DNA from: Alphaproteobacteria bacterium
GTDB lineage: Bacteria; Pseudomonadota; Alphaproteobacteria; Acetobacterales; Acetobacteraceae
Length of the DNA stretch: 26,871 nt
Assembly: GCA_013298245.1 (NCBI GenBank)
Contig: JAAFHD010000004.1
Span: 1-26,871, forward strand
Reading direction: 5' to 3'
The notes under the pieces were generated by a model, which saw only the letters and a list, made by a program, of their open reading frames with translations, was not told the DNA's origin and did not search any database. How positions within the stretch are numbered: the first letter of the stretch is position 1; the number at the start of each line of letters is the position of its first letter. A program made the translations under genes and the position numbers. Of this stretch, positions 1,470 to 24,757 are shown piece by piece.

Positions 1470-2539
1470 GGTGGAACTCGACCAATACGACGCTGATCGG
1501 GCTGGCCGGCATAGGTGCTGTGATCGGCTTCGGGCTGCTCTTCACCTTCGAGCGGCTGCCGATCGACACGGTGCAGGGGGGCTTTCGCGGCACCTCCATG
1601 GGCCAGGTGATCAACCCGCGCACGGCTGCTGTGATGGCCGCGCGCAATGTGGCGCCGCCGGTGCCCGAGGCCGCCGATCCCGGTGGTGACCGGGCCTCCG
1701 CGGTGTTCGAGAATGTGCAGGTTCTGGGGCACCTCTCGGTCGAGCAGTTCAACCGGATCATGCAGGTCATGACCGAGTGGATCTACCCGAACGAGAACAT
1801 CGCCGAGGGCTGCAATGGCTGCCATGTGCCGGGCAATTTCGCCTCGGACGACATCTACACCAAGCATGTGGCGCGCCGCATGCTGCAGATGACGATGTCG
1901 CTGAACGGCACCTGGCAGACGCATACCGGCGAAGTGGGCGTGACCTGCTACACCTGCCACCGCGGCAATGCGGTGCCGGCCTATGTGTGGTCCGCGCCGG
2001 TGCCGAATACGGCGGGCGGTGGGTTTGCCGCTGTGGCGAGCGGTGAGCAGAACCGGCCTGGCCGGAATGTGGGCCTGGCGTCGCTGCCGAATGACCCGTT
2101 CACGCCGTATCTGATGGGCAATGAGGAAATCCGCATGCAGGGGCGTGACCAGCACCCGCGGGCGGAAAGCCGGCAATCCATCCAGCAGACGGAGTGGAAT
2201 TATGGGCTGATGATGCACATGTCGACGTCACTCGGCGTGAACTGCACCTTCTGCCACAACAGCCGCGCCTTCTCGAACTGGGATGAAAGCCCGCCGCAAC
2301 GACTGACGGCGTGGCATGGCATCCGCATGGTGCGGGATATCAACACCAACTACATCGAGCCGCTGCGGGAACGCTTCCCGGCGAACCGGCTGGGGCCGAT
2401 GGGGGATACGTTGAAGGTGAACTGCACGACGTGCCACCAGGGGGCCTACGAGCCGCTGTATGGTGCGCCGATGCGGGTGAATTATCCGGAGCTGTTGCCG
2501 GCGCCGCAGAGACGGGCGGAAGGGCCTCGGCAGAACTGA
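1466..2539 (+). CDS. pufC: Reaction-centre tetrahaem cytochrome c subunit
   Basis: This 357-residue protein is the periplasmic cytochrome that re-reduces the photo-oxidised special pair, taking electrons from soluble cytochrome c or HiPIP. Four CxxCH haem-attachment motifs are visible at residues 116-120 (CNGCH), 161-165 (CYTCH), 260-264 (CTFCH) and 320-324 (CTTCH). They fall in two pairs, as in the Blastochloris viridis subunit. Helices rich in Met and His precede the haem motifs, as expected for axial ligands. Residues about 8-28 form one hydrophobic segment with no lipobox cysteine. The protein is therefore probably held by an uncleaved N-terminal anchor rather than the lipid anchor of the B. 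viridis protein. The gene start overlaps the pufM stop by four bases. No further puf gene follows. Confidence 0.97.
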
Positions 2540-2557
2540 GTTTTGGAAGTGTTGAGT

Positions 2558-2590
2558 GGGAGGGGCCGGTTCCGAGAGGGGCCGGCTCCC
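2558..2590 (+). terminator. Possible hairpin after pufC
   Basis: Nineteen bases after the pufC stop there is an imperfect inverted repeat. GGGA and GCCGG on the left (2558-2569) pair with CCGGC and TCCC on the right (2582-2590), with a small bulge and a loop of about 12 bases. No T-run follows, so if it ends the puf transcript it is not a classical intrinsic terminator. It could instead be an mRNA-stabilising 3' stem. The rest of 2591-2790 shows no convincing gene. Confidence 0.3.
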
Positions 2591-2797
2591 GGTCAGTTCG
2601 TATTGGATGGCGTTGCCACGTTTGCTCGGAAACTGAATTCCCGGTTTGGGCCGAATCAGGGCGACCGAGCGCGCGGATCAGCTTCCCGATATTGTCGTCC
2701 CGGATGGCCTGCGGACGCTGCTTCGGGTAGCGACTCTTGTCCCGGCGGCTAAAGTCCGAAATGCTTGTGTGGAAAGCGTCGTGGTAGGAGTTTACTG

Positions 2798-3643
2798 ATG
2801 CCTTGGAAACCGGCGAATGGCCGACACGCTATCGAGCGCGCCACGGCTTCTTTCATTTTTCGTGACGGCCTGACGCAGCACGCGCATAACCAAGCTGTAA
2901 ACCTTCTCATGAGGTCGGCATCAGCACTCGGCTTGAACGAGACAGTTATTCTGCCGCCACCCGTCCAGCTCAATTTCGTACAATCTGGTAATGTGCCCGC
3001 ACCTATTCCTCAGCACGTTGTCGGCCCACCCGCAGGGCGCAGTGTTCGTCGGACCGATAACGGGAAACCACAAGAGGACGCCCTTTTGACGTCGGATCTG
3101 CTGTCATTCACCACTTATGCCTATGAGCGATGGAAGCCGTTTCATGACCGAATGGGCGCCCTTCTGCAGCAACTGTTCGCCATGGTATCTACTACAACCG
3201 CGATTTCGGAGGTACGACTCGAGTACTGGGACCGCTTTGATCGTCGGCCAGCTTCTGATCAAGACGAGCCTTTGACCAACCCAGCGTCGCAGCTGCTAGG
3301 GCCAAGCCTCCTATCGGAAACTGGTTCTTGGCATACACATGTAGGCATATTCCGCGACTTGGAACGAGATCGGCGAACCCTCATCAACGCCAATGTCGAT
3401 GCGATCGCGTCAATGACGAACCATCCGCAGACATTCTCGGGAGGGGTTACGGGTCAGGCTCGCATCTACACATTGGCGTCTACGCAAGCGGTTAGCGACC
3501 AAAATCCCTTGGGCACATGGGACATCGCGTTTGGTGAATTCGATCGCATTCATCACATCTTGAAAAGTGTCCTAAATGATGTTATACATCCGGATATCGC
3601 TACGGCGATCAATTTGAATGCGCAGCCCTTGAAGTTGAGATAG
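2798..3643 (+). CDS. TIGR04255-like family protein, function unknown
   Basis: This encodes 281 residues. The ATG at 2798 is chosen because TAGGAG at 2785-2790 lies seven bases upstream; a longer frame from a TTG at 2765 lacks such a site. The opening (PWKPANGRHAIERATASFIF) and general length resemble the sporadically distributed TIGR04255 family, whose members often start with a short 'AIERV.F.F'-like strand and whose role is unknown. This assignment is by eye only. No signal peptide, membrane helix, nucleotide-binding loop or nuclease motif is visible, so a soluble cytoplasmic protein is likely. It is the first gene of a three-gene, same-strand block that is AT-richer than its neighbours and uses codons (TTA, ATA, AAT) rare elsewhere in the window. 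The next gene starts two bases after its stop. Confidence 0.72.
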   Translation: MPWKPANGRHAIERATASFIFRDGLTQHAHNQAVNLLMRSASALGLNETVILPPPVQLNFVQSGNVPAPIPQHVVGPPAGRSVRRTDNGKPQEDALLTSDLLSFTTYAYERWKPFHDRMGALLQQLFAMVSTTTAISEVRLEYWDRFDRRPASDQDEPLTNPASQLLGPSLLSETGSWHTHVGIFRDLERDRRTLINANVDAIASMTNHPQTFSGGVTGQARIYTLASTQAVSDQNPLGTWDIAFGEFDRIHHILKSVLNDVIHPDIATAINLNAQPLKLR

Positions 3644-3645
3644 CG

Positions 3646-4371
3646 ATGATGAGCACAGCGCTGACATCCCAATTGCATCGCAGGACGCCTTCCGCATTGG
3701 CAGCGTCGTCTAATGTCATGGACGATATCTCGTCGTCTGGCCGGGATTCGCAAGCGGACACCTTTGAGTCCGGTGACGCGTTCGTACCTCAAACTTTCAT
3801 CGTGCCACATCAGCGGCCCGCCGTTGCTGCGCGGCGGTCGCAGTCGACCTTTAATACAACTTGTGTAATTGGCTTAGTCTCGCAACTAGCGGTATTTGGA
3901 CCAGCGCCCTCAATCGCACGCGATGTGACGAGTCTCTGGCACCTTGATGCCGGCAGCATGCACTGGTTCGACGAAGACCTGATGGCTGCCAATGGTGCGT
4001 TCGCGCCTGTACAAGAAAATTGCGGGCATATTAGATTTTTTGAAGAGATTGATCGTTTTCTCAAATTACAGGCCGACTGGGATGGCGACAACGGCATCGC
4101 CCCAAGCATAGCTGCCGGCGATGCTGCGAAGACATTCCTGCGCGAGCTATCATCAACCAAATTTCCCGCCGCATGTTATGCGATCGGAGATGGCGAAATC
4201 ATATTTCAATGGCGATCAAGTCAAAATTTCATAGAAGTCGCGTTCGATGGCGATATAATTTCTTGGTATGTGAAGCTTGGCAACGCTGAGCCTGAGTCCA
4301 GCGATGACGTTTTCACGACGTACCAGTCGATCGACCAGCGGCTACTTTTGGCAATCAGTCAATTGGGTTGA
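3646..4371 (+). CDS. Hypothetical protein of the AT-rich three-gene block
   Basis: This encodes 241 residues and starts two bases after the previous stop; ATG codons at 3646 and 3649 are both possible. I do not recognise a named domain. The N-terminal ~110 residues are Ser/Ala-rich and poorly structured in appearance. The C-terminal ~130 residues look like a compact fold. It has an acidic LQADWDGDNG motif (around residues 144-153), a helix with AAKTFLREL, then strands GDGEIIFQWRS and FIEVAFDGDIISWY. A 'Trp-Asp-Gly ... FL.L ... G.i.leW....iEi...g...Y' pattern recurs in uncharacterised bacterial proteins I recall, but I cannot name the family. A hydrophobic stretch around residues 72-85 (TCVIGLVSQLAVFG) is too weak to call a membrane segment. 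Codon use is AT-rich; bases 4021-4080 are 24/60 G+C by hand count. Confidence 0.68.
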   Translation: MMSTALTSQLHRRTPSALAASSNVMDDISSSGRDSQADTFESGDAFVPQTFIVPHQRPAVAARRSQSTFNTTCVIGLVSQLAVFGPAPSIARDVTSLWHLDAGSMHWFDEDLMAANGAFAPVQENCGHIRFFEEIDRFLKLQADWDGDNGIAPSIAAGDAAKTFLRELSSTKFPAACYAIGDGEIIFQWRSSQNFIEVAFDGDIISWYVKLGNAEPESSDDVFTTYQSIDQRLLLAISQLG

Positions 4372-4389
4372 GAGTGGGGCAGTTTTTAT

Positions 4390-4872
4390 ATGACGCAGCG
4401 CTGTCCGGCATCTCCAGCACCGATCGAATCGAGTGAACAAGTTATTAGAGGTATATATTCCCCGGAAATTTTCGATACGCGCACAGGCCGCGTGACGGCC
4501 GCCGCAGTCAAGTTGGATGAACTGATGTCGACAAATGGTCTCGTAGACTACTGCGGCGCGTCGTCTGGACTGTCAGTTTTTCGTATCGATCACGCGGGCG
4601 GCTTGGAACAGGCGCGTGATGCATTGAATACCGTTGTAAGCAGGCTGCGAACGAAAGGGCAGACACGATTGGCCGTAGGCTTCTCAACGTTGTTGGCCAG
4701 TGCAATTTCTAACATCCCTGGTGGGCATCTTTCTGTGCTGGACGACGGGGGTGAGCACCATACCTGCCACGCTGTCGTTAGAGCGGCGTCGGCCACTACA
4801 CGAGCTTCTTTACGTGGAGCGCGAGATGAGTTGGTTCAAATGATGAATGAGGCTCTTGTCAGGTTTCCTTAG
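4390..4872 (+). CDS. Hypothetical protein, third gene of the AT-rich block
   Basis: This encodes 160 residues and starts 18 bases after the preceding gene; the ribosome site (GAGTGGGG near 4372-4379) is rather distant. No named domain is recognised. The N-terminal part (VIRGIYSPEIFDTRTGRVTA, then GLSVFRIDHAGG) resembles a pattern seen in small uncharacterised proteins, where a short 'I.P..fd..G.vt..Af' segment is followed by 'LSV.R'. The later HTCHAVVRA segment could be the equivalent of their 'HA.I..' strand. This is recall, not a search result. The last 14 bases overlap the 3' end of the convergent vapC gene. Order, spacing and shared base composition suggest co-transcription with the two preceding genes. 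Confidence 0.65.
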   Translation: MTQRCPASPAPIESSEQVIRGIYSPEIFDTRTGRVTAAAVKLDELMSTNGLVDYCGASSGLSVFRIDHAGGLEQARDALNTVVSRLRTKGQTRLAVGFSTLLASAISNIPGGHLSVLDDGGEHHTCHAVVRAASATTRASLRGARDELVQMMNEALVRFP

Positions 4873-5239
4873 GGCGAACATTCATCCCCCCCCCCCCATT
4901 CCTCGTCACCAGCACCATCCCCCGCGCCCGCGCCTGCCCCGCAACCAGCACATCACCCACCCCAACCACCGCCCCGCACGCCGCCAACACAGCCCTCACC
5001 TCCCCCGCCGCCCGAGCATCCTCGCGCCCAAACTCCAGCACCCCGAACCGCAGCCCATCCACCACCGCCACATTCCGCGCCACCCGCGCGCTGCGAAACG
5101 CCCCATAGAACAGCTCATGCAGCACGATCGCCGAGACAAACACCTCCGCCGGCGCACATGCCTGCACCCGCCGCCCAACCGGCGCCTCTGTGTCCTTCAG
5201 CACGGCAATCACGGCATTGGTGTCCAGCAAAAACCCCAT
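4859..5239 (-). CDS. vapC: VapC-type PIN-domain ribonuclease toxin, C-terminus altered
   Basis: This encodes 126 residues and starts at 5239; its ATG overlaps the vapB stop (TGATG), the usual toxin-antitoxin coupling. PIN-domain toxins are Mg-dependent RNases acting on tRNA or rRNA. The acidic site is visible: Asp6 in LLDTN, Glu42 in VLHELFYG, Asp96 in GVGDVLVAGQARARG, with Glu80 and the terminal TRN (residues 112-114) in their normal places. After TRN, family members normally continue with a segment of the type 'vreF.rvpgl'. Here the frame instead runs through four Gly encoded by a 12-base G tract, then NVRPKET and a stop that overlaps the neighbouring foreign gene. The last strand is therefore probably lost. 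Activity is uncertain, although all catalytic acids are kept. Confidence 0.88.
   Translation of the reverse strand: MGFLLDTNAVIAVLKDTEAPVGRRVQACAPAEVFVSAIVLHELFYGAFRSARVARNVAVVDGLRFGVLEFGREDARAAGEVRAVLAACGAVVGVGDVLVAGQARARGMVLVTRNGGGGMNVRPKET
4886..4897. repeat. Run of 12 C at the boundary of the AT-rich block
   Basis: An uninterrupted run of twelve C (G on the vapC strand) lies 14 bases after the stop of the third cassette gene and inside the vapC frame. It sits exactly where GC-rich host-like DNA (47/60 G+C at 4921-4980 by hand count) gives way to the AT-rich block. It may mark a recombination junction, a slippage-prone tract or an assembly artefact. Lengths of 11 or 13 would each end VapC within a few codons and would not restore a normal tail. 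Confidence 0.9.
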
Positions 5240-5484
5240 CAGCCGAACAGCTCATCCAACCCCGGCCGCTCCTGCTCACCCGGCCCTTCCGCCGCCGCCT
5301 CCGCCGCATCCGCATCCAACCGCCCCGCCACCGCGCGCAGCCAGGCCCAATCCGCGGCCATCGGTTCCAAAATCACCGCATCCCCCTGCCGGCGAATGCG
5401 CACCTCCTGCCCGTCAAACCGGAATTGCTTGGGCAGCCTGATCGCCTGGGAACGCCCGGTCCAGAACAGCTTCGCGGTGTCCAT
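5239..5484 (-). CDS. vapB: VapB-type antitoxin, AbrB/SpoVT-like DNA-binding N-terminus
   Basis: This encodes 81 residues. The start at 5484 ([20 protein letters not shown]) is chosen because GGAGG lies eight bases upstream and the product begins as VapB proteins do. The frame is open further upstream, but that extension is Gly/Ala-rich and has no family character. The N-terminal ~45 residues form a swapped-hairpin AbrB fold ([35 protein letters not shown]) that dimerises and binds operator DNA. The acidic C-terminal tail ([17 protein letters not shown]) would bind and block VapC. Its stop overlaps the vapC start, so the two genes are translationally coupled. The pair probably represses its own promoter through the palindromes at 5498-5528. 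Confidence 0.9.
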
Positions 5485-5497
5485 GCTCAGCGCCTCC

Positions 5498-5540
5498 GTA
5501 TGGTAGCTACCAAAGATAGCCACCATACCGCGCAGATCAA
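5498..5540 (-). promoter_or_regulatory. vapBC promoter and palindromic operator
   Basis: The sequence TGGTAGCTACCA (5501-5512) is a perfect 12-bp palindrome. It lies within a wider inverted repeat, GTATGGT (5498-5504) and ACCATAC (5522-5528). On the minus strand a plausible promoter has -35 TTGATC (5540-5535), a 16-base spacer and -10 TATCTT (5518-5513). VapB-VapC binding to the inverted repeats would cover the -10 box. Self-repression of this kind is the norm for vapBC; the box assignments are by eye. Confidence 0.55.
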
Positions 5541-5635
5541 CACCCGGCGCAACAACAAAAATCGCGCATACCCTGCCATCGTGGCCCATTCCGCCGGCAG
5601 CAGCCCCACCCCAAACCGACGCGCGGATCAGCCCA

Positions 5636-7363
5636 TCACCTGCACACGAAGCTCGCCGCATCCTCCACATCGCCGCCCGCCGTGAAGCGCGCCACCTGCG
5701 GGTATGGGCACAGCGGCCGCGTGCGGGTGGGCGCCCAACCGGCCGGCAGTTCCGCGTTCACCGCCCCCGCATTGCCCGCCCCGCGCACGCTGGCGATGAT
5801 GCGCTCAGGGGCGATGCCCTCCTCCACCCAGCGCACCAGCGGCGTGATCATGTCGAACTGGTCGGCGGCCGGCCCGGCGGCGCAATGCGCCATGCCCGGC
5901 ACCGGAAACACCCGCGCGAATTGCGCCGCCGTCCCGCCCTGTGCGGCATCCAACTGGCGGAACCAGGTGGTCGAGGTATTGACCGAAAACACCGCATCCG
6001 ACACGCCATGAAACACCAGCACGCGCCCACCGCGGTTGCGCAGCGCTGACATGTCGGTCGGGTTGACCGGGTTCATGAAGCTCATCGCCGGCACGGGGTA
6101 GAGCGGCGTGGTGCTGGATACGGTGCTGAACAGCGTCTCCAGCGGGCGCATCGCGAAGGCGCGGCGGTCGAAGCCCGTCATGCTCTCCGGCGGCGCGCTG
6201 ACGATCATGCCGACGGAAAACGAACTGCGCGCCTCCGGCAGGGTGAATTCCCACAAGGCCCAATTCGCGGCACTCAACCCAGGGTCGAACGGAAAGCTCG
6301 AATAGACGCGCTGGCCATCCGCCAGCGCGGGCCCCGCATAGATCGACGCGACAACATCCTTCTGCGCTTCAGTCAGGCAGGTGCCATCCCGCGCGCCGGT
6401 GCAGCTCGGCACGTCGCGCCGCAGGTCGAAGGCGGCCTGGCAGGCCTGCGTGTCCTGCACCATGCCATCGGCCGCGCCATCCAGCGCGTCGCAGCGGTTC
6501 AGGATGGCGCGCGCCACCATCTGGCGTTCGGCCGGCGTGAAGGCGGTGCCGAGATTATTGGGATCCGTCGCCACCGACCGATAGCGCTGCGCGCCCCACA
6601 GCTGCGCCACCGAAGACGCCGGCAGCGTGAAGGCCGGCGCGCCGGCCAGAATGCCATCATACCATTGCGAATAGCGCGTCGCCGCGACCAGCGCGTGGCG
6701 CCCGCCATTGGAACAGCCACCAAAATACGACCGGTCCGGCAGGCGCCCATACACACGGCGGATGATGTCGCGCGCCACCGGCGTCAGGCTGCCGACCGCC
6801 TGGTAGCCATAGTCCAGCCGCGCCTGCGGGTCGGCGCCGAAATTCGCCTCGCCCCGATCGCGGTTGCCGGCATTGGAACTCAATACCGCGAAGCCCTGAT
6901 GCAACCCGCCGGTGACCGGCCCGCCGCCGAATTCGGCCAGTGCGGGCACCACCACGCCATCCAGCCCGCCATTGCCCTGGTGGAAGAAGCGGCCATTCCA
7001 TTGCAGCGGCAGGCGCATCTCGAAATCAATGCCATAGGCGCGGCCATCCACCGCGCTGACGCGTTCATTGACGGTGCCAAGCACCTGGCAATGCGCCGCC
7101 ACCGGCGCGCCGCCGACGCGCTGCCCATCCACCTGGCGGCCGCCCACCATCACGCCGCCGGCGGCTACCAGCGCCGCGGATGTGATGGTGGTGCCCGGAA
7201 TGCCGGCCAGCGTGTTCACCAGGCTGGCGCAATCGCCACTGAAGCTGCCGGGTTGCGCCCGCGTCAGCTGCTGCGCTGCGGCGCCATGACCGCCGAGCGC
7301 CAGGGCCGCCAGCATGTGGGTGCCCGCGACGACGGCGCGATGCGCCCGGTTCCTGTGGCTCAT
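5636..7363 (-). CDS. Secreted tannase/feruloyl esterase-family hydrolase (MHETase superfamily)
   Basis: This encodes 575 residues. The ATG at 7363 follows a GGAGGGG site; a GTG five codons upstream is less likely. Residues 1-31 are a signal peptide (cleavage near GAAAQQ), so the enzyme is exported. The tannase-family CS-D-HC signature is complete. It comprises Cys217-Ser218 in GGCSNGG, Asp456 in HGVSDAVF and His493-Cys494 in PGMAHCAAG, where Ser/Asp/His is the triad and the two Cys normally form a disulfide. A calcium-loop motif ([14 protein letters not shown], about 291-304) lies in the lid region, as in feruloyl esterases, tannases and MHETase. It should hydrolyse an ester of an aromatic acid; the exact substrate cannot be read from sequence. 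It lies 155 bases downstream of the Bug-family binding-protein gene on the same strand. Confidence 0.93.
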
Positions 7364-10620: not shown

Positions 10621-13600
10621 TCAGAACGCGTAGCTGATGCCCGCGCGCAGCGCATGTTCCCGCGTGCGCCCGCTGCCGACCATCCCGACGTAGTTGGCCG
10701 TCGCCCGCAATTGTTGCGTGATGCGCAGTTCAGCACCCGCCTCCATCACCAGCGCATCGCGCGGCAGCGGCGCGCCCGCGATGGTGAAGGCGCTGCCACC
10801 GCCCTGGAAGGCCAGCGCGCCACGCGCCACGGTGTCACCAATGGCGCGTTGCCAGCCCAGCTGCGCGCGCGGCGTCAGCACCATGCCGCCGGCCAGCGGC
10901 AGGCTGCCCTCCAGCCGCACGCCCAGCGTGCTCCAGCCCAGTGACGCGCTGCGCGTGCCCGAGCGCAGCAGCGCCGGGCCGCTGCCCGCCTCCGCCATGC
11001 CGCCCGCGCTGCTGCGCGCCCAGGCCAGGTTGGCGAAAGGTTCGACCAGCACGCCGCCCGCGCGCAGCCCATAGGCCACCTCGCCGAACAGCTGCACACC
11101 TTGCGCCGAATACTGCGCGGTGCTGTTGCCGCTGATGCCCGCGAACCCACCACGCCGCGTTGACACATCGCCCGCGAAGGCCGCGATACCGCCCGTCAAC
11201 CTGAGCGGCCCCGCCGACCACATGGCATAGGCACCGAACTGCGCTGCCGTCATGTGCGCGCGGCTCGACTGGCGTTCGGGCACGCGGAAGACGCTGTCCG
11301 TGCCGCCCGCGAAGATGCCGATGCGCCAGTTGTTGCCGGTCGCGTCCAGCCCCGCGATCGCGCCGCCCATGCTGCGCCGCAGCCCCGCCGCATTGCCATC
11401 GCCGCCCACCGCGCCGGTCGCACCCAGGCCCTGCATCCAGGCGCTGACGCGCACGCCGCCGAACTGCGCGATGGGCGTGCCGCCATCGGCCGGCTGGCGC
11501 GCGCGGCCCAGCACCGCGCCGCGGATCAGCCGCGATTCCTCCAGCATGCCCGACAGCGCGGAGATGTGGATTTCGCCCGAGATCGCATCCAGCCCCGCCC
11601 GCGCCTGCGGCGCCGAGAGCGGCAGGAAACCCGCCGTCAGCGGCGCGCCCACAGGCAGTGTATCGAGCGCTCCGGCCACCGCGCGCTGGTTCGGCGTCAA
11701 GGCGACATCGCTGAAGCCCGTGGTGTTGCGCGACAGCGTCAGCAGCACATCGGTGGCGGTGTAGGACAGCGCGGGCGTCAGGAAGGCCAGGTCGGTGCTG
11801 ACCGAACCGAAGGTGCCGCTACGTCCGCCAGAGGCAGAGAGGATGGTGTAGTTGGTGGTCGGGCCATAGCCGGTACCGCCGGCCAGCACGCGCACGGTTG
11901 CACCACCCAGCGTGGCAGTGCCGGTCGCGTTGATACGGTCCGATTGCCCGCCAGGCTGGGTTTCCACCACGAAAGTGCTGCCCGCCGCGAAGGCGACATT
12001 GCCGCCCACCGTGACCGTGCCGATGGAATTGCCCGGCGCCACAGTGCCGCCCGCGCCGATGTTCAACCCGCCCAGCACAGCGTTGCCCGCCAGCGTCGCA
12101 CCCGCGCCCACATTCACCGTGGCGTTGGGCAGGCCCGCGCCATTCACCCGCAGCGTGCCCGCGGCCAACGTGATGGTGCCGGCCATGCTGCCGCCCTGCA
12201 CGGACAGCTCGCCCGTGCCGGTCTTGCTGAAGCCCGCGCCGCCGGTCAGCGCGCCGGTCAGACCCAGCGTGGCCGCACCGGTGTCGATGGTGGTCACGCC
12301 AATCGCCGGGCCTGGTCCGAAGGTGATCGGGTTGGCCAAGGTGAAGCCACCGGCGCGCAGCGTGGCGCCCTGCGCGAGCGTGATGGCGCCACTGCCGGCC
12401 GCTGCCGCCTGCGACAGGATCAGCGCGGCACCGCCGGCCACATTGGTGCCGCCCGCATGCGTGTTGGCGGCCGAGAGCGTCACGCCGCCACTTTCAATCG
12501 CAACGACGCCGCTGCCGGAGATCACGCCGGCCATGGTGATGGCGCCGCCGGTCGCGAAGGCCAATGTGGCGTTGTTGGTGACATCACCGGGCAGGCTGCC
12601 GCCGGCGCGCAGGCGCAGCGTGCCGCTGCTGATCAAGGTGCCGCCGGAATGCGTGGCGGCGCTGGCCAGTTCCAGATTGCCGGTGCCGGCCATCACCAGG
12701 CGGCCGGTGCCGGCCACAGCACCTTGCAACTGCAATGTGCTGGTGCCCGCGGGCGCGAAGGTCGCATCGCCGCTGAGCGTGATGCTGCGCGCCATGTTGA
12801 AGCTGGCGGTGGTGGCCAGCGCCGCGCCGTTCAGCGCGACCGCGCCGCCGGCAGCACCCAGCGCTGCGTCCGCCGCGACCGAGAGCGTGCCGCCCGCCAC
12901 CGTCAGGCCACCCGTGAAGCTGTTGGCGCCACCCAGCACCAGCGTGCCTGCGCCGGTCTTGGCCAGGCCCGCGGTGCCGCCGATGTCGCTGGCGATGCTG
13001 GCGGTGATGCCGCTTTGCACCTCGATGCTGCCAAGGCCCGTCGCGGTCAGCGCGCCGCCGGACAGCGTGTAGCCATCCGTGCGGAAGGACAGTGTCTGGA
13101 AGCTTTGCGTGCCGCTGACGGTGACGGCGCCGGCAGCGCCGGCGAAGACCGCGTTCACGTTGTTCCAGACGCGCGATGTGGCGCCGGTTGCGTTGGTGAA
13201 ATTGGTGGCCCCCGCCCAGGTGCCGGCGCCGCCTTGCACGGTGCCGTTGGCGGTGGTGGTGCTGCCGTTCCAGAACAGTGTGAAGGCCGGGTCATAGGTG
13301 ACGCGCACCTGGCCCGCCGTTGCGGTATCGAGCGCGAAATCGGCCAGCTGGAAGCCGCTCGGCGCGCTGGACAGCACCAGGTTGGGAAGGCCGGTTGCGC
13401 TGCCATAGGTCATCAGCGTGTAGGTGCCGGTCGCCAGCCCGCCGCCATTGAGCAGCGCGATGTTGTGCGACCCCGCCACGGTCAGCGCGCCGGTGACGGT
13501 GATCCGGTCGGAGGTGACTGGCGCGCCCAGTTCGAATTGCGACACGGACCCGGCGTTCAGCGTCAGCGCGCCCACCGTCAGCGTGCCGATGGAATTGCCA

Positions 13601-22405: not shown

Positions 22406-22436
22406 TGGAGTTGCCCCCCTTCCGCGGAGACCCTGA
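22406..22436 (+). repeat. IS3-family left terminal inverted repeat
   Basis: Thirty-one bases pairing with 23262-23292; mismatches at two internal positions only. Confidence 0.85.
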
Positions 22437-22457
22437 CACCCCCCTTGGAGGTGTCCG

Positions 22458-23217
22458 ATGCCCAAACGTTACCGAGCGTCCTACCCGCCTGAATTCCGAC
22501 GTCAGATCATTGAATTGCACCGCGCTGGCCGTTCTGCGCGCGCAGGGCCTGGCCGTGACCCGCAAGCGCATCGCCCGACTGATGCGCGAGACTGGCCTGC
22601 GTGGCGTCTCCCGCCGCCGTGGCATCGTCACCACGCGGCGTGACCCGAAACATCACCCGGCCCACGATCTGGTGCGACGCAACTTCCATGCTGACCGACC
22701 GGACCAGCTCTGGGTTGCCGACATCACCCTCGACGTATACGTCGAGCCCGACCGCCGCCGGGTTTCTGTACCTCGCCATCGTCCTCGACGTCTGGTCGCG
22801 CCCTTCGGCGCGGCGCTCGAACCGGTGGCGCGCTCGCGCCTCAGGATCGGCTGGGCGATGGCCAATACCCTGCATGCCAGCATCGTCCTCACCGCCCTCG
22901 AAATGGCCACCGCCGGCCGCAAGCCGCGTGATGTCATTCATCACAGCGACAAGGGCAGCCAATACACGTCGCTGGCCTTCGGCCAGCGCTGCGCGGAACT
23001 CGGCGTGCGGCCTTCCACGGGCTCGGTCGGCGATGCCTATGATAACGCGATGGCCGAGGCGTTCTTCGCCACACTCGAATGCGAGCTGCTGGATCGCAGG
23101 CGCTTCGCATCCCAGGCCGAGGCGCGCATGGCGGTCTTTCATTTCATCGAGGGTTTCTACAACCCAAGCCGACGCCACTCGGCCCTCGGATATCTCTCGC
23201 CCATGCAGTTCGAAAGG
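22458..23217 (+). pseudogene. IS3-family transposase remnant (orfA start fused to orfB, frameshifted)
   Basis: The remnant begins as orfA (MPKRYRASYPPEFRRQIIEL) with GGAGGTG just upstream. At about 22525 it passes, in another frame, into the middle of orfB (LRAQGLAVTRKRIARLMRETG), so roughly 400 bp are gone. The GCTGGCCGTTC bases at the join could be read as either protein, suggesting deletion between short matches. In the rve-type integrase domain the first Asp (LWVADIT), second Asp (HHSDKGSQY) and Glu (NAMAEAFF) are present. However, between about 22730 and 22850 the expected TAAGFLYLAIVLDVWSR lies in a different frame, so at least two indels have occurred. No active transposase can be made from this copy. 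Confidence 0.85.
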
Positions 23218-23261
23218 GGGGATACCCGCCAACCACGACCTGAACCGTTCCCCGCAACCCT

Positions 23262-23292
23262 TCAGGGTGTCCACGGAAGGGGGGCAACTCCA
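23262..23292 (-). repeat. IS3-family right terminal inverted repeat
   Basis: Inverted partner of 22406-22436, with 29 of 31 positions matching. Confidence 0.85.
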
Positions 23293-23361
23293 CAGATGCC
23301 TTCATGTCCGCCATCGCTCTCGCCGCAACCGTCACCTTCTGGATCAATGAGTCCTATGCCT
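23292..23361 (+). pseudogene. Possible IS5-type transposase C-terminal scrap
   Basis: Directly after the IS3 right end a short frame reads TDAFMSAIALAATVTFWIN and ends at a TGA. This resembles the last helix of IS5-family DDE transposases (pattern '..F..a..lAa...fWl'). If correct, the IS3 element landed in an older IS. The matching upstream part is not visible on the left flank, so this is tentative. Confidence 0.3.
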
Positions 23362-23373
23362 GAACTGCACGAA

Positions 23374-23430
23374 TTGTCCAAAATAAAAGAATAAGTAGAA
23401 TATTGAAACGTTCTTCGGAATATTGTAACG
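23374..23430 (+). promoter_or_regulatory. AT-rich promoter region with two 13-bp direct repeats ahead of the RTX gene
   Basis: A candidate promoter has -35 TTGTCC (23374-23379), a 16-base spacer and -10 TAGAAT (23396-23401). Overlapping and following it are GAATATTGAAACG (23398-23410) and GAATATTGTAACG (23418-23430). These match at 12 of 13 positions and are spaced 20 bp start to start, close to two helical turns, so one protein dimer could bind the same face. The stretch is strikingly AT-rich against its surroundings. It drives the RTX gene whose ATG is at 23516. Confidence 0.45.
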
Positions 23431-23515
23431 CCTTCGTGCTTGCCAATAAATCTAAATCGCGGAATGGTGAACTGCGTTGCCCATCCGAAGGTCGCGCCTC
23501 AAGGAGGCCGCAGCC

Positions 23516-24757
23516 ATGCCCATCATCCCGCAATATGGTTCACCCTTTGGAGGCTCGACCCTCAACGGCACGCCGGGGCCGGACTGGCTGATCGCCTATG
23601 GCTACGGCAACACCCTCATCGGCCTGGCCGGCGCCGATACGCTGCAGGGCGGTAACGGGGGCGCCAACATCCAGGCCGGCGACGGCGACAACATCATCGC
23701 CGTGCTGGGCTATGGCAACATCATCACCTTCGGTAACGGCAACAACAACATCGACGGCCCCTCGGGCGGCGTCACCATCACCTATACCGGGGTGGGCGGC
23801 GGCGCGGGCTTCATCAACGGCATCACCCTGCGCGGCGGCAACAACCGGCTGACCCTGGGCGCGGGCACCGACATCATTCGGGTCACTGAGGGCGGCAACA
23901 GCACCTATGATCTGGGTGGTGGCAACAACGACATCCAGTCCGATGGCTACGGCAATTTCATCACCGCAGGAAACGGCAACAACAGCATCAGCGGCATGCA
24001 GGGCGGCACCACGCTGCGGCTAGGGAACGGCAACAACACCATTGCCATCACCGGCTGGAACAATGACGTGGTGCTGGGCGACGGGGTGAACCACTTCATC
24101 GGCGGCGCCGGCGGCAACACCCGCATCACCGCCGGCAATGGCGGCAACGCAATCGAGCTCACGGGCTGGAACAACACCATCACCACTGGCAGCGGCAACG
24201 ACCAGGTCTGGGCCGGGATGGGCATGTCCGTCATCAGCACCGGCGTGGGCGACGACCAGGTTTGGCTCGGCGCCTCGGGCCAGTCGGTGGTGGACACGGG
24301 CGACGGCGACGACGTCATCCGCACCGGCGGCGCCGGCTTCGATATCCTGCGCGGCGGCCGCGGCAATGATCAGTACGTCGTGCGGGGCACCGGCGTGCAG
24401 GTGATCGAGGCGGCGGGCGAAGGCGTGGATACGCTCTATGTCGGCGTGGACGGCTACATCCTGCCCGACAACATCGAGGTGACCCACCTGATCGAGGGCG
24501 CCAGCCGCATCACCGGCGGCGCGGGGAATGACGTCATCGTCGCCAACGCCGCGCTGGCTTCGAGCATCGAAGGCGGCGCCGGGCAGGACACCCTCTACGG
24601 CCAGGGGCTGAACGACACCCTAGACGGCGGCGCGGGTGATGATGTGCTGCGCGGCTATGCCGGCGACGACCTGCTGCGAGGTGCCGCCGGCAACGACGTC
24701 CTCGACGGCGGCACCGGCAACGACTTCATGCTGGGCGGCGAGGGCGACGACATCTAG
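23516..24757 (+). CDS. RTX calcium-binding repeat protein, N-terminal half ended by an in-frame TAG
   Basis: This encodes 413 residues from the ATG at 23516, with AAGGAGG nine bases upstream. It starts MPIIPQYGSPFGG with no signal peptide, as expected of type I-secreted proteins. Residues about 20-270 are unusual short repeats built on GNGNN.I, GYGN.I and GWNN.I, probably stacking as a beta-roll or beta-helix. Residues about 270-413 are classical nonapeptides (GGxGxDxLxG) that bind calcium. The frame stops at TAG (24755-24757) in GGEGDDI-stop-VIDSTND. The two later equivalents read NDTYYLD and NDTYIVD, so the stop replaces a conserved Tyr. The same frame continues to 26503. Alone this half lacks the C-terminal secretion signal and would likely stay inside the cell. 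Confidence 0.85.
   Translation: MPIIPQYGSPFGGSTLNGTPGPDWLIAYGYGNTLIGLAGADTLQGGNGGANIQAGDGDNIIAVLGYGNIITFGNGNNNIDGPSGGVTITYTGVGGGAGFINGITLRGGNNRLTLGAGTDIIRVTEGGNSTYDLGGGNNDIQSDGYGNFITAGNGNNSISGMQGGTTLRLGNGNNTIAITGWNNDVVLGDGVNHFIGGAGGNTRITAGNGGNAIELTGWNNTITTGSGNDQVWAGMGMSVISTGVGDDQVWLGASGQSVVDTGDGDDVIRTGGAGFDILRGGRGNDQYVVRGTGVQVIEAAGEGVDTLYVGVDGYILPDNIEVTHLIEGASRITGGAGNDVIVANAALASSIEGGAGQDTLYGQGLNDTLDGGAGDDVLRGYAGDDLLRGAAGNDVLDGGTGNDFMLGGEGDDI

Follow-up and report, generated by a model that had tools for sequence, protein, structure and literature searches.

The three-gene cassette and its base composition

The window analysed here, the whole 26,871-nucleotide stretch at positions 1 to 26,871 of contig JAAFHD010000004.1 (assembly GCA_013298245.1, Acetobacteraceae), contains a compact cassette of three genes, the first of which belongs to the TIGR04255 family. 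A sequence-only reading of this DNA had described these genes as a tightly spaced, AT-rich set and had suggested that they might form a defence, toxin or stress module. The genes are the following:

2798-3643, + strand: gene 1, open frame of 281 amino acids
3646-4371, + strand: gene 2, open frame of 241 amino acids
4390-4872, + strand: gene 3, open frame of 160 amino acids

Remeasuring gave exactly the arrangement that had been read before, with all three genes in the same direction and gaps of 2 bp between genes 1 and 2 and of 18 bp between genes 2 and 3. The earlier G+C counts of 24/60 at 4021-4080 and 47/60 at 4921-4980 were likewise reproduced exactly, and the cassette as a whole is indeed AT-richer than its surroundings: its G+C content is 0.535 (53.5%), versus 0.682 (68.2%) in the window outside the accessory segment at 2587-4872. 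Third codon positions differ in the same way (G+C of 0.52-0.57 in the cassette genes versus 0.79-0.85 in the five neighbouring genes measured), and the 2075-bp stretch with the poorest G+C that does not overlap the segment has a value of 0.632 (stretch mean, 0.686; standard deviation, 0.022).

The resemblance of gene 1 to TIGR04255, noted earlier, was confirmed with NCBIfam, in which the window copy scores 40.8 bits over residues 56-270, above the curated NCBI cut-off of 30. Its AlphaFold2 (AF2) model has a predicted local distance difference test score (pLDDT) of 86.7 and shows a predicted alpha/beta fold with long beta strands. Y109, W112, the stretch LEYWDRF at 141-147, W178, H179, H181 and G183 are invariant in seven sequences, and most of these residues are kept in a set of 13. 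Gene 2, the co-conserved middle gene of the cassette loci, has a variable N-terminal part and a C-terminal region with the motif WDGD...GEI..W. In gene 3, the residues E16, S62, R65 and H127 are invariant in alignments of 12 and of 15 sequences.

The three genes recur together across genomes

Relatives of gene 1 were gathered from viral contigs, whole genomes and named genome contigs. Genes 2 and 3 of the window and of loci L002-L005 were matched by eye and aligned, and the resulting profiles, later enlarged, were tested on held-out loci found through gene 1 alone. Loci on the same contig, recognised by contig and length, were merged (L003=L024=L025, L010=L023, L016=L020, L011=L031, L002=L018, L004=L028, L005=L026 and L014=L038). 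The sequence-only reading had proposed tabulating the neighbours of homologues, and this tabulation shows that the genes recur together: a relative of gene 3 lies downstream in 17 of the 26 distinct gene-1 loci (gene 1 identity, 15-32%), including one, L029, that was brought in by gene 3. Of the 20 held-out loci, all of them located through gene 1 alone, 11 contain gene 3, with profile matches at E values of 2e-11 to 1.2e-15 in L008, L010 and L011, of 6.6e-17 to 7.1e-30 in L013-L017, and of 1.4e-39, 5.4e-23 and 1.1e-30 in L021, L022 and L037, respectively; the nine held-out loci without it are L007, L009, L012, L019 and the very distant L032-L036. Gene 2 has diverged further: of the 11 loci with gene 3, it was found in nine (weakest E, 7.4e-6), its profile having missed L010 and L015.

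The converse search, starting from gene 3, gave matches in six of 385 genomes of the source's class, its own included (about 1.6%), and the module is therefore rare. Gene 1 lies upstream of gene 3 in five of the six; in the sixth (G440), the contig starts 104 bases before the gene 3 match, which has one internal stop. No intact orphan gene 3 was seen in the 385 class genomes. Distantly related bacteria share this gene order, as do prophages. With start codons picked by the analyst, genes 1 and 2 overlap in 13 of the 17 cassettes, by exactly 4 bases in seven; the four remaining distances are 2, 7, 10 and 267 bases, the last in L018, in which gene 1 is shortened. Genes 2 and 3 overlap by up to 74 bases or are separated by up to 18.

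Pairwise distances over 14 loci are correlated between genes 1 and 2 (r = 0.44, P = 0.0016), genes 1 and 3 (r = 0.56) and genes 2 and 3 (r = 0.51; P = 0.0002 for each of the last two). Genes that move together and share a function would be expected to show such correlations, but shared ancestry alone would also produce them. The comparisons show genes 1, 2 and 3 to be a co-conserved unit, tightly spaced, with correlated divergence and a patchy occurrence. We give hardly any credence to the alternative that these are accessory genes hitch-hiking together with no common function: it would agree with the AT-rich DNA and with the variability of the segment among same-genus genomes, but the gene order is kept over many loci at 15-32% identity and the divergence is correlated.

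A possible ADP-ribosyltransferase fold in gene 3

The top-ranked structures for the predicted fold of gene 3, at modest Z, are KptA, Tse2 and SdeA, all of which have the ADP-ribosyltransferase (ART) fold. In the Foldseek comparison of the gene 3 model with Tse2 (5ako), the E value of 0.37 was not significant. The search of 17 gene-3 members against Pfam at E <= 1 gave no ART family, hhalign of gene 3 to eight KptA and 12 RES sequences gave a probability of 0.3% or less, and the PDB sequence search with gene 3 returned no ART chain. Judging from its model, gene 3 may be an ART-like toxin, and we propose it as the effector; this putative fold class comes from structure prediction and finds no support in the sequence searches. 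Gene 3 might instead be a KptA-type (2'-phosphotransferase) RNA- or protein-modifying enzyme and the operon a stress-repair set. We consider this very improbable, given that PF01885 has no match at E <= 1, that there is no significant profile similarity and that the occurrence is patchy.

Phage-type genes near the cassette

In several genomes the cassette is prophage-carried cargo, with phage genes nearby. Twenty neighbouring proteins were chosen for a PHROGs scan and 17 gave matches. Nine cassettes have phage-type genes within about 4 kb: an integrase (L013 and L019), an endolysin (L014), virion proteins (L015), a tail protein and an amidase (L016/L020, Gemmobacter aestuarii), a baseplate hub and a tape measure (L018), a tape measure and a tail chaperone (L021, Methylobacterium), a neck protein and a polymerase exonuclease (L024), and a DNA methyltransferase (L037). 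The neighbours in L017 are a repressor and a ParB-like match, and nothing more. Five of the loci with phage neighbours came from a viral collection, a source biased towards this outcome; among the loci from the genome-contig scan, four of six (L019, L020, L021 and L024) have phage-type genes, the other two, L022 and L023, being outside the PHROGs scan. Around the cassette of the window itself, no phage gene was identified.

These data bear on the possibility that the cassette is an addiction module that stabilises the prophage and has no anti-phage role, with gene 3 as toxin and genes 1 and/or 2 as antitoxin. Such a module would fit the tight coupling of the three genes, their frequent location on phage-type DNA and the toxin-like fold predicted for gene 3. 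However, a two-gene toxin-antitoxin pair needs fewer than three conserved genes, and L022 is chromosomal, with no phage gene seen by eye in 16.6 kb. On balance, we regard an addiction module as unlikely, albeit worth serious consideration.

Two further genes were noted near individual cassettes. In L023 (Tardiphaga), an OLD-family nuclease match (11371-13419; residues 386-442, E = 2.6e-7) lies ~1.4 kb downstream of the cassette, possibly marking a defence neighbourhood. In L037, a protein at 2276-3529, on the same viral contig as the cassette, looks by eye like a TIR-like nucleotide-binding domain.

Apparent exchange of the third gene

Several other loci encode a different protein in third position, and the third gene therefore looks exchangeable. 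In L019, from a Rhodospirillales metagenome-assembled genome (MAG), gene 1 is of the same type as in the window (27% identity), but the third gene differs and shares 38% identity with its counterpart in L032, where the accompanying TIGR04255 gene is a distant one. The third genes of L033 and L032 are 48% identical, and that of L012 is alike by eye. NHIGILY...GLTCATF-like motifs characterise this third-gene family, common to the distant TIGR04255 operons L032, L033, L012 and L019, and the three members tested (L012, L019 and L032) have no Pfam match. L007 and L009 contain another small third-gene type, 89% identical between them, and the middle gene of L034 and L036 gives a weak helix-turn-helix match. 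These comparisons support the view that, in some loci, an unrelated protein has taken the place of the third gene, as happens with effectors.

This exchange, pointing as it does to effectors, speaks against the idea that the cassette is superinfection-exclusion or lysogenic-conversion cargo that targets the cell envelope or a single phage step and contains no growth-stopping toxin. The tail, lysis and integrase genes near several loci would fit such cargo, which we nevertheless consider improbable. A broader reading, which we put forward tentatively, is that TIGR04255 could be the constant core of an undescribed family of anti-phage systems, with a middle adaptor and an interchangeable third-gene effector, spread largely by prophages. 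Equally tentatively, the effector of the window's branch would then have the ART fold, and those of other branches would be cysteine-hydrolase-like or HEPN-like, labels that were given by eye and confirmed by no library.

Flanks of the cassette

The following features flank the cassette:

2587-2797: accessory segment, left part; the pufC flank is similar to two same-genus genomes (L049 and L053; blastn) only as far as 2586
4859-5239, - strand: VapC, a neighbour judged to lie outside the cassette, with the base composition of the rest of the window
within 5239-5670, - strand: VapB, likewise

The cassette had been placed between a photosynthesis operon and a toxin-antitoxin pair, and this is where it lies: on the left is a gene with a match to the reaction-centre M subunit (E = 7.5e-156), with PufL and PufC identified by eye on the same side, and VapBC is on the right. 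By DNA comparison, the cassette sits in a variable segment, because similarity of the flank stops and gene 1 is missing from same-genus genomes. From the pufM/pufC side, similarity reaching 2586 is 90% in L049 and 85% in L053 (blastn), and in three further same-genus genomes it ends at 2505-2526. On the right, among the matches listed, strong DNA matches to the closest relatives start not in vapBC but at 5638, the end of a tannase-like gene. The gene-1 profile, which found the source genome's own copy, has no match in 8/8 same-genus genomes, of which one has a completeness of 69%. The assemblies of the two closest relatives place pufC and the tannase-like gene on separate contigs and therefore provide no clean empty site.

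The last 14 bp of gene 3 (4859-4872) are shared, tail to tail, with VapC, and the ends of both modules could therefore affect each other. A run of 12 C at 4886-4897, in the last vapC codons (minus strand), is a possible slippage site that would alter the VapC end. Farther away, an IS3-type transposase remnant was recognised by eye at 22411-23394, followed by RTX-like repeats at 23477-24757; G+C dips to 0.57 at 23001-23750.

Discussion

The conservation of the cassette as a unit, its carriage by prophages and its possible toxin make it a candidate phage-defence or toxin module of an undescribed kind. The reading that we favour, to which we assign a rough probability of 0.45, is that it is an operon of three genes that has moved horizontally, often as prophage cargo, and may function as an abortive-infection or toxin-antitoxin-like module with an ART-fold effector. 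The fixed order, tight spacing and patchy distribution on which the sequence-only reading had based its module idea are all found, and that idea is partly supported; the function is, as before, one that we infer. For an operon observed as a unit with a patchy and partly prophage-borne occurrence, the restraint, trigger and outcome, like the fold class of gene 3, are proposed as follows. The products of gene 1 (TIGR04255), as a proposed sensor, scaffold or neutraliser, and gene 2, as a proposed adaptor or antitoxin, would bind that of gene 3 and keep this effector in check. Phage infection, or loss of the operon, would free gene 3, which would use NAD+ and act on a host or phage target. Cell growth would stop before phage release, and the lysogen or prophage would be protected. 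With phage genes close by and an apparently exchangeable third gene that may be toxin-like, the operon might prove a new addition to the effector-bearing modules that shape conflicts between phages and their hosts, both in alphaproteobacteria and in other groups.

The cassette proteins were not matched as a known anti-phage system by the models of PADLOC-DB 2.0.0. Window genes 1 and 3 match no model at E <= 1, and the whole cassette is therefore not PDC-M32. Window gene 2 has a weak partial match to the candidate PDC-M32A and to nothing else, its C-terminal region matching the C-terminal part of the 375-position model; among gene-2 members, the PDC-M32A models PDLC04575, PDLC04576 and PDLC04574 are matched by 3/15 (best E, 7.9e-6), 3/15 (best E, 1.3e-4) and 1/15 (E = 0.062), respectively. 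A weak row for the L003 gene-3 relative against PDC-M16B (E = 0.019) was taken as chance.

Other known systems can be compared with the cassette. Tse2, known from the solved Tse2-Tsi2 complex 5ako, is delivered by a type VI secretion system and has a Tsi2-like immunity protein; gene 3, in contrast, has a TIGR04255 protein and gene 2 as cassette partners, and the PDB sequence search gave no match between it and Tse2. From the KptA/Tpt1 RNA 2'-phosphotransferase, gene 3 differs in that Pfam PF01885 does not match it and profile comparison shows no significant similarity. VapBC is a toxin-antitoxin pair adjoining the cassette, but it is on the opposite strand, has an ordinary base composition and belongs to unrelated families. 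Finally, the family of gene 1 (NCBIfam sporadTIGR04255), whose curated cut-off the window copy exceeds, is a curated model for which the library used gives no role; here, gene 1 comes first in a three-gene cassette in most of the relatives seen, and this conserved operon offers a testable function for the family.
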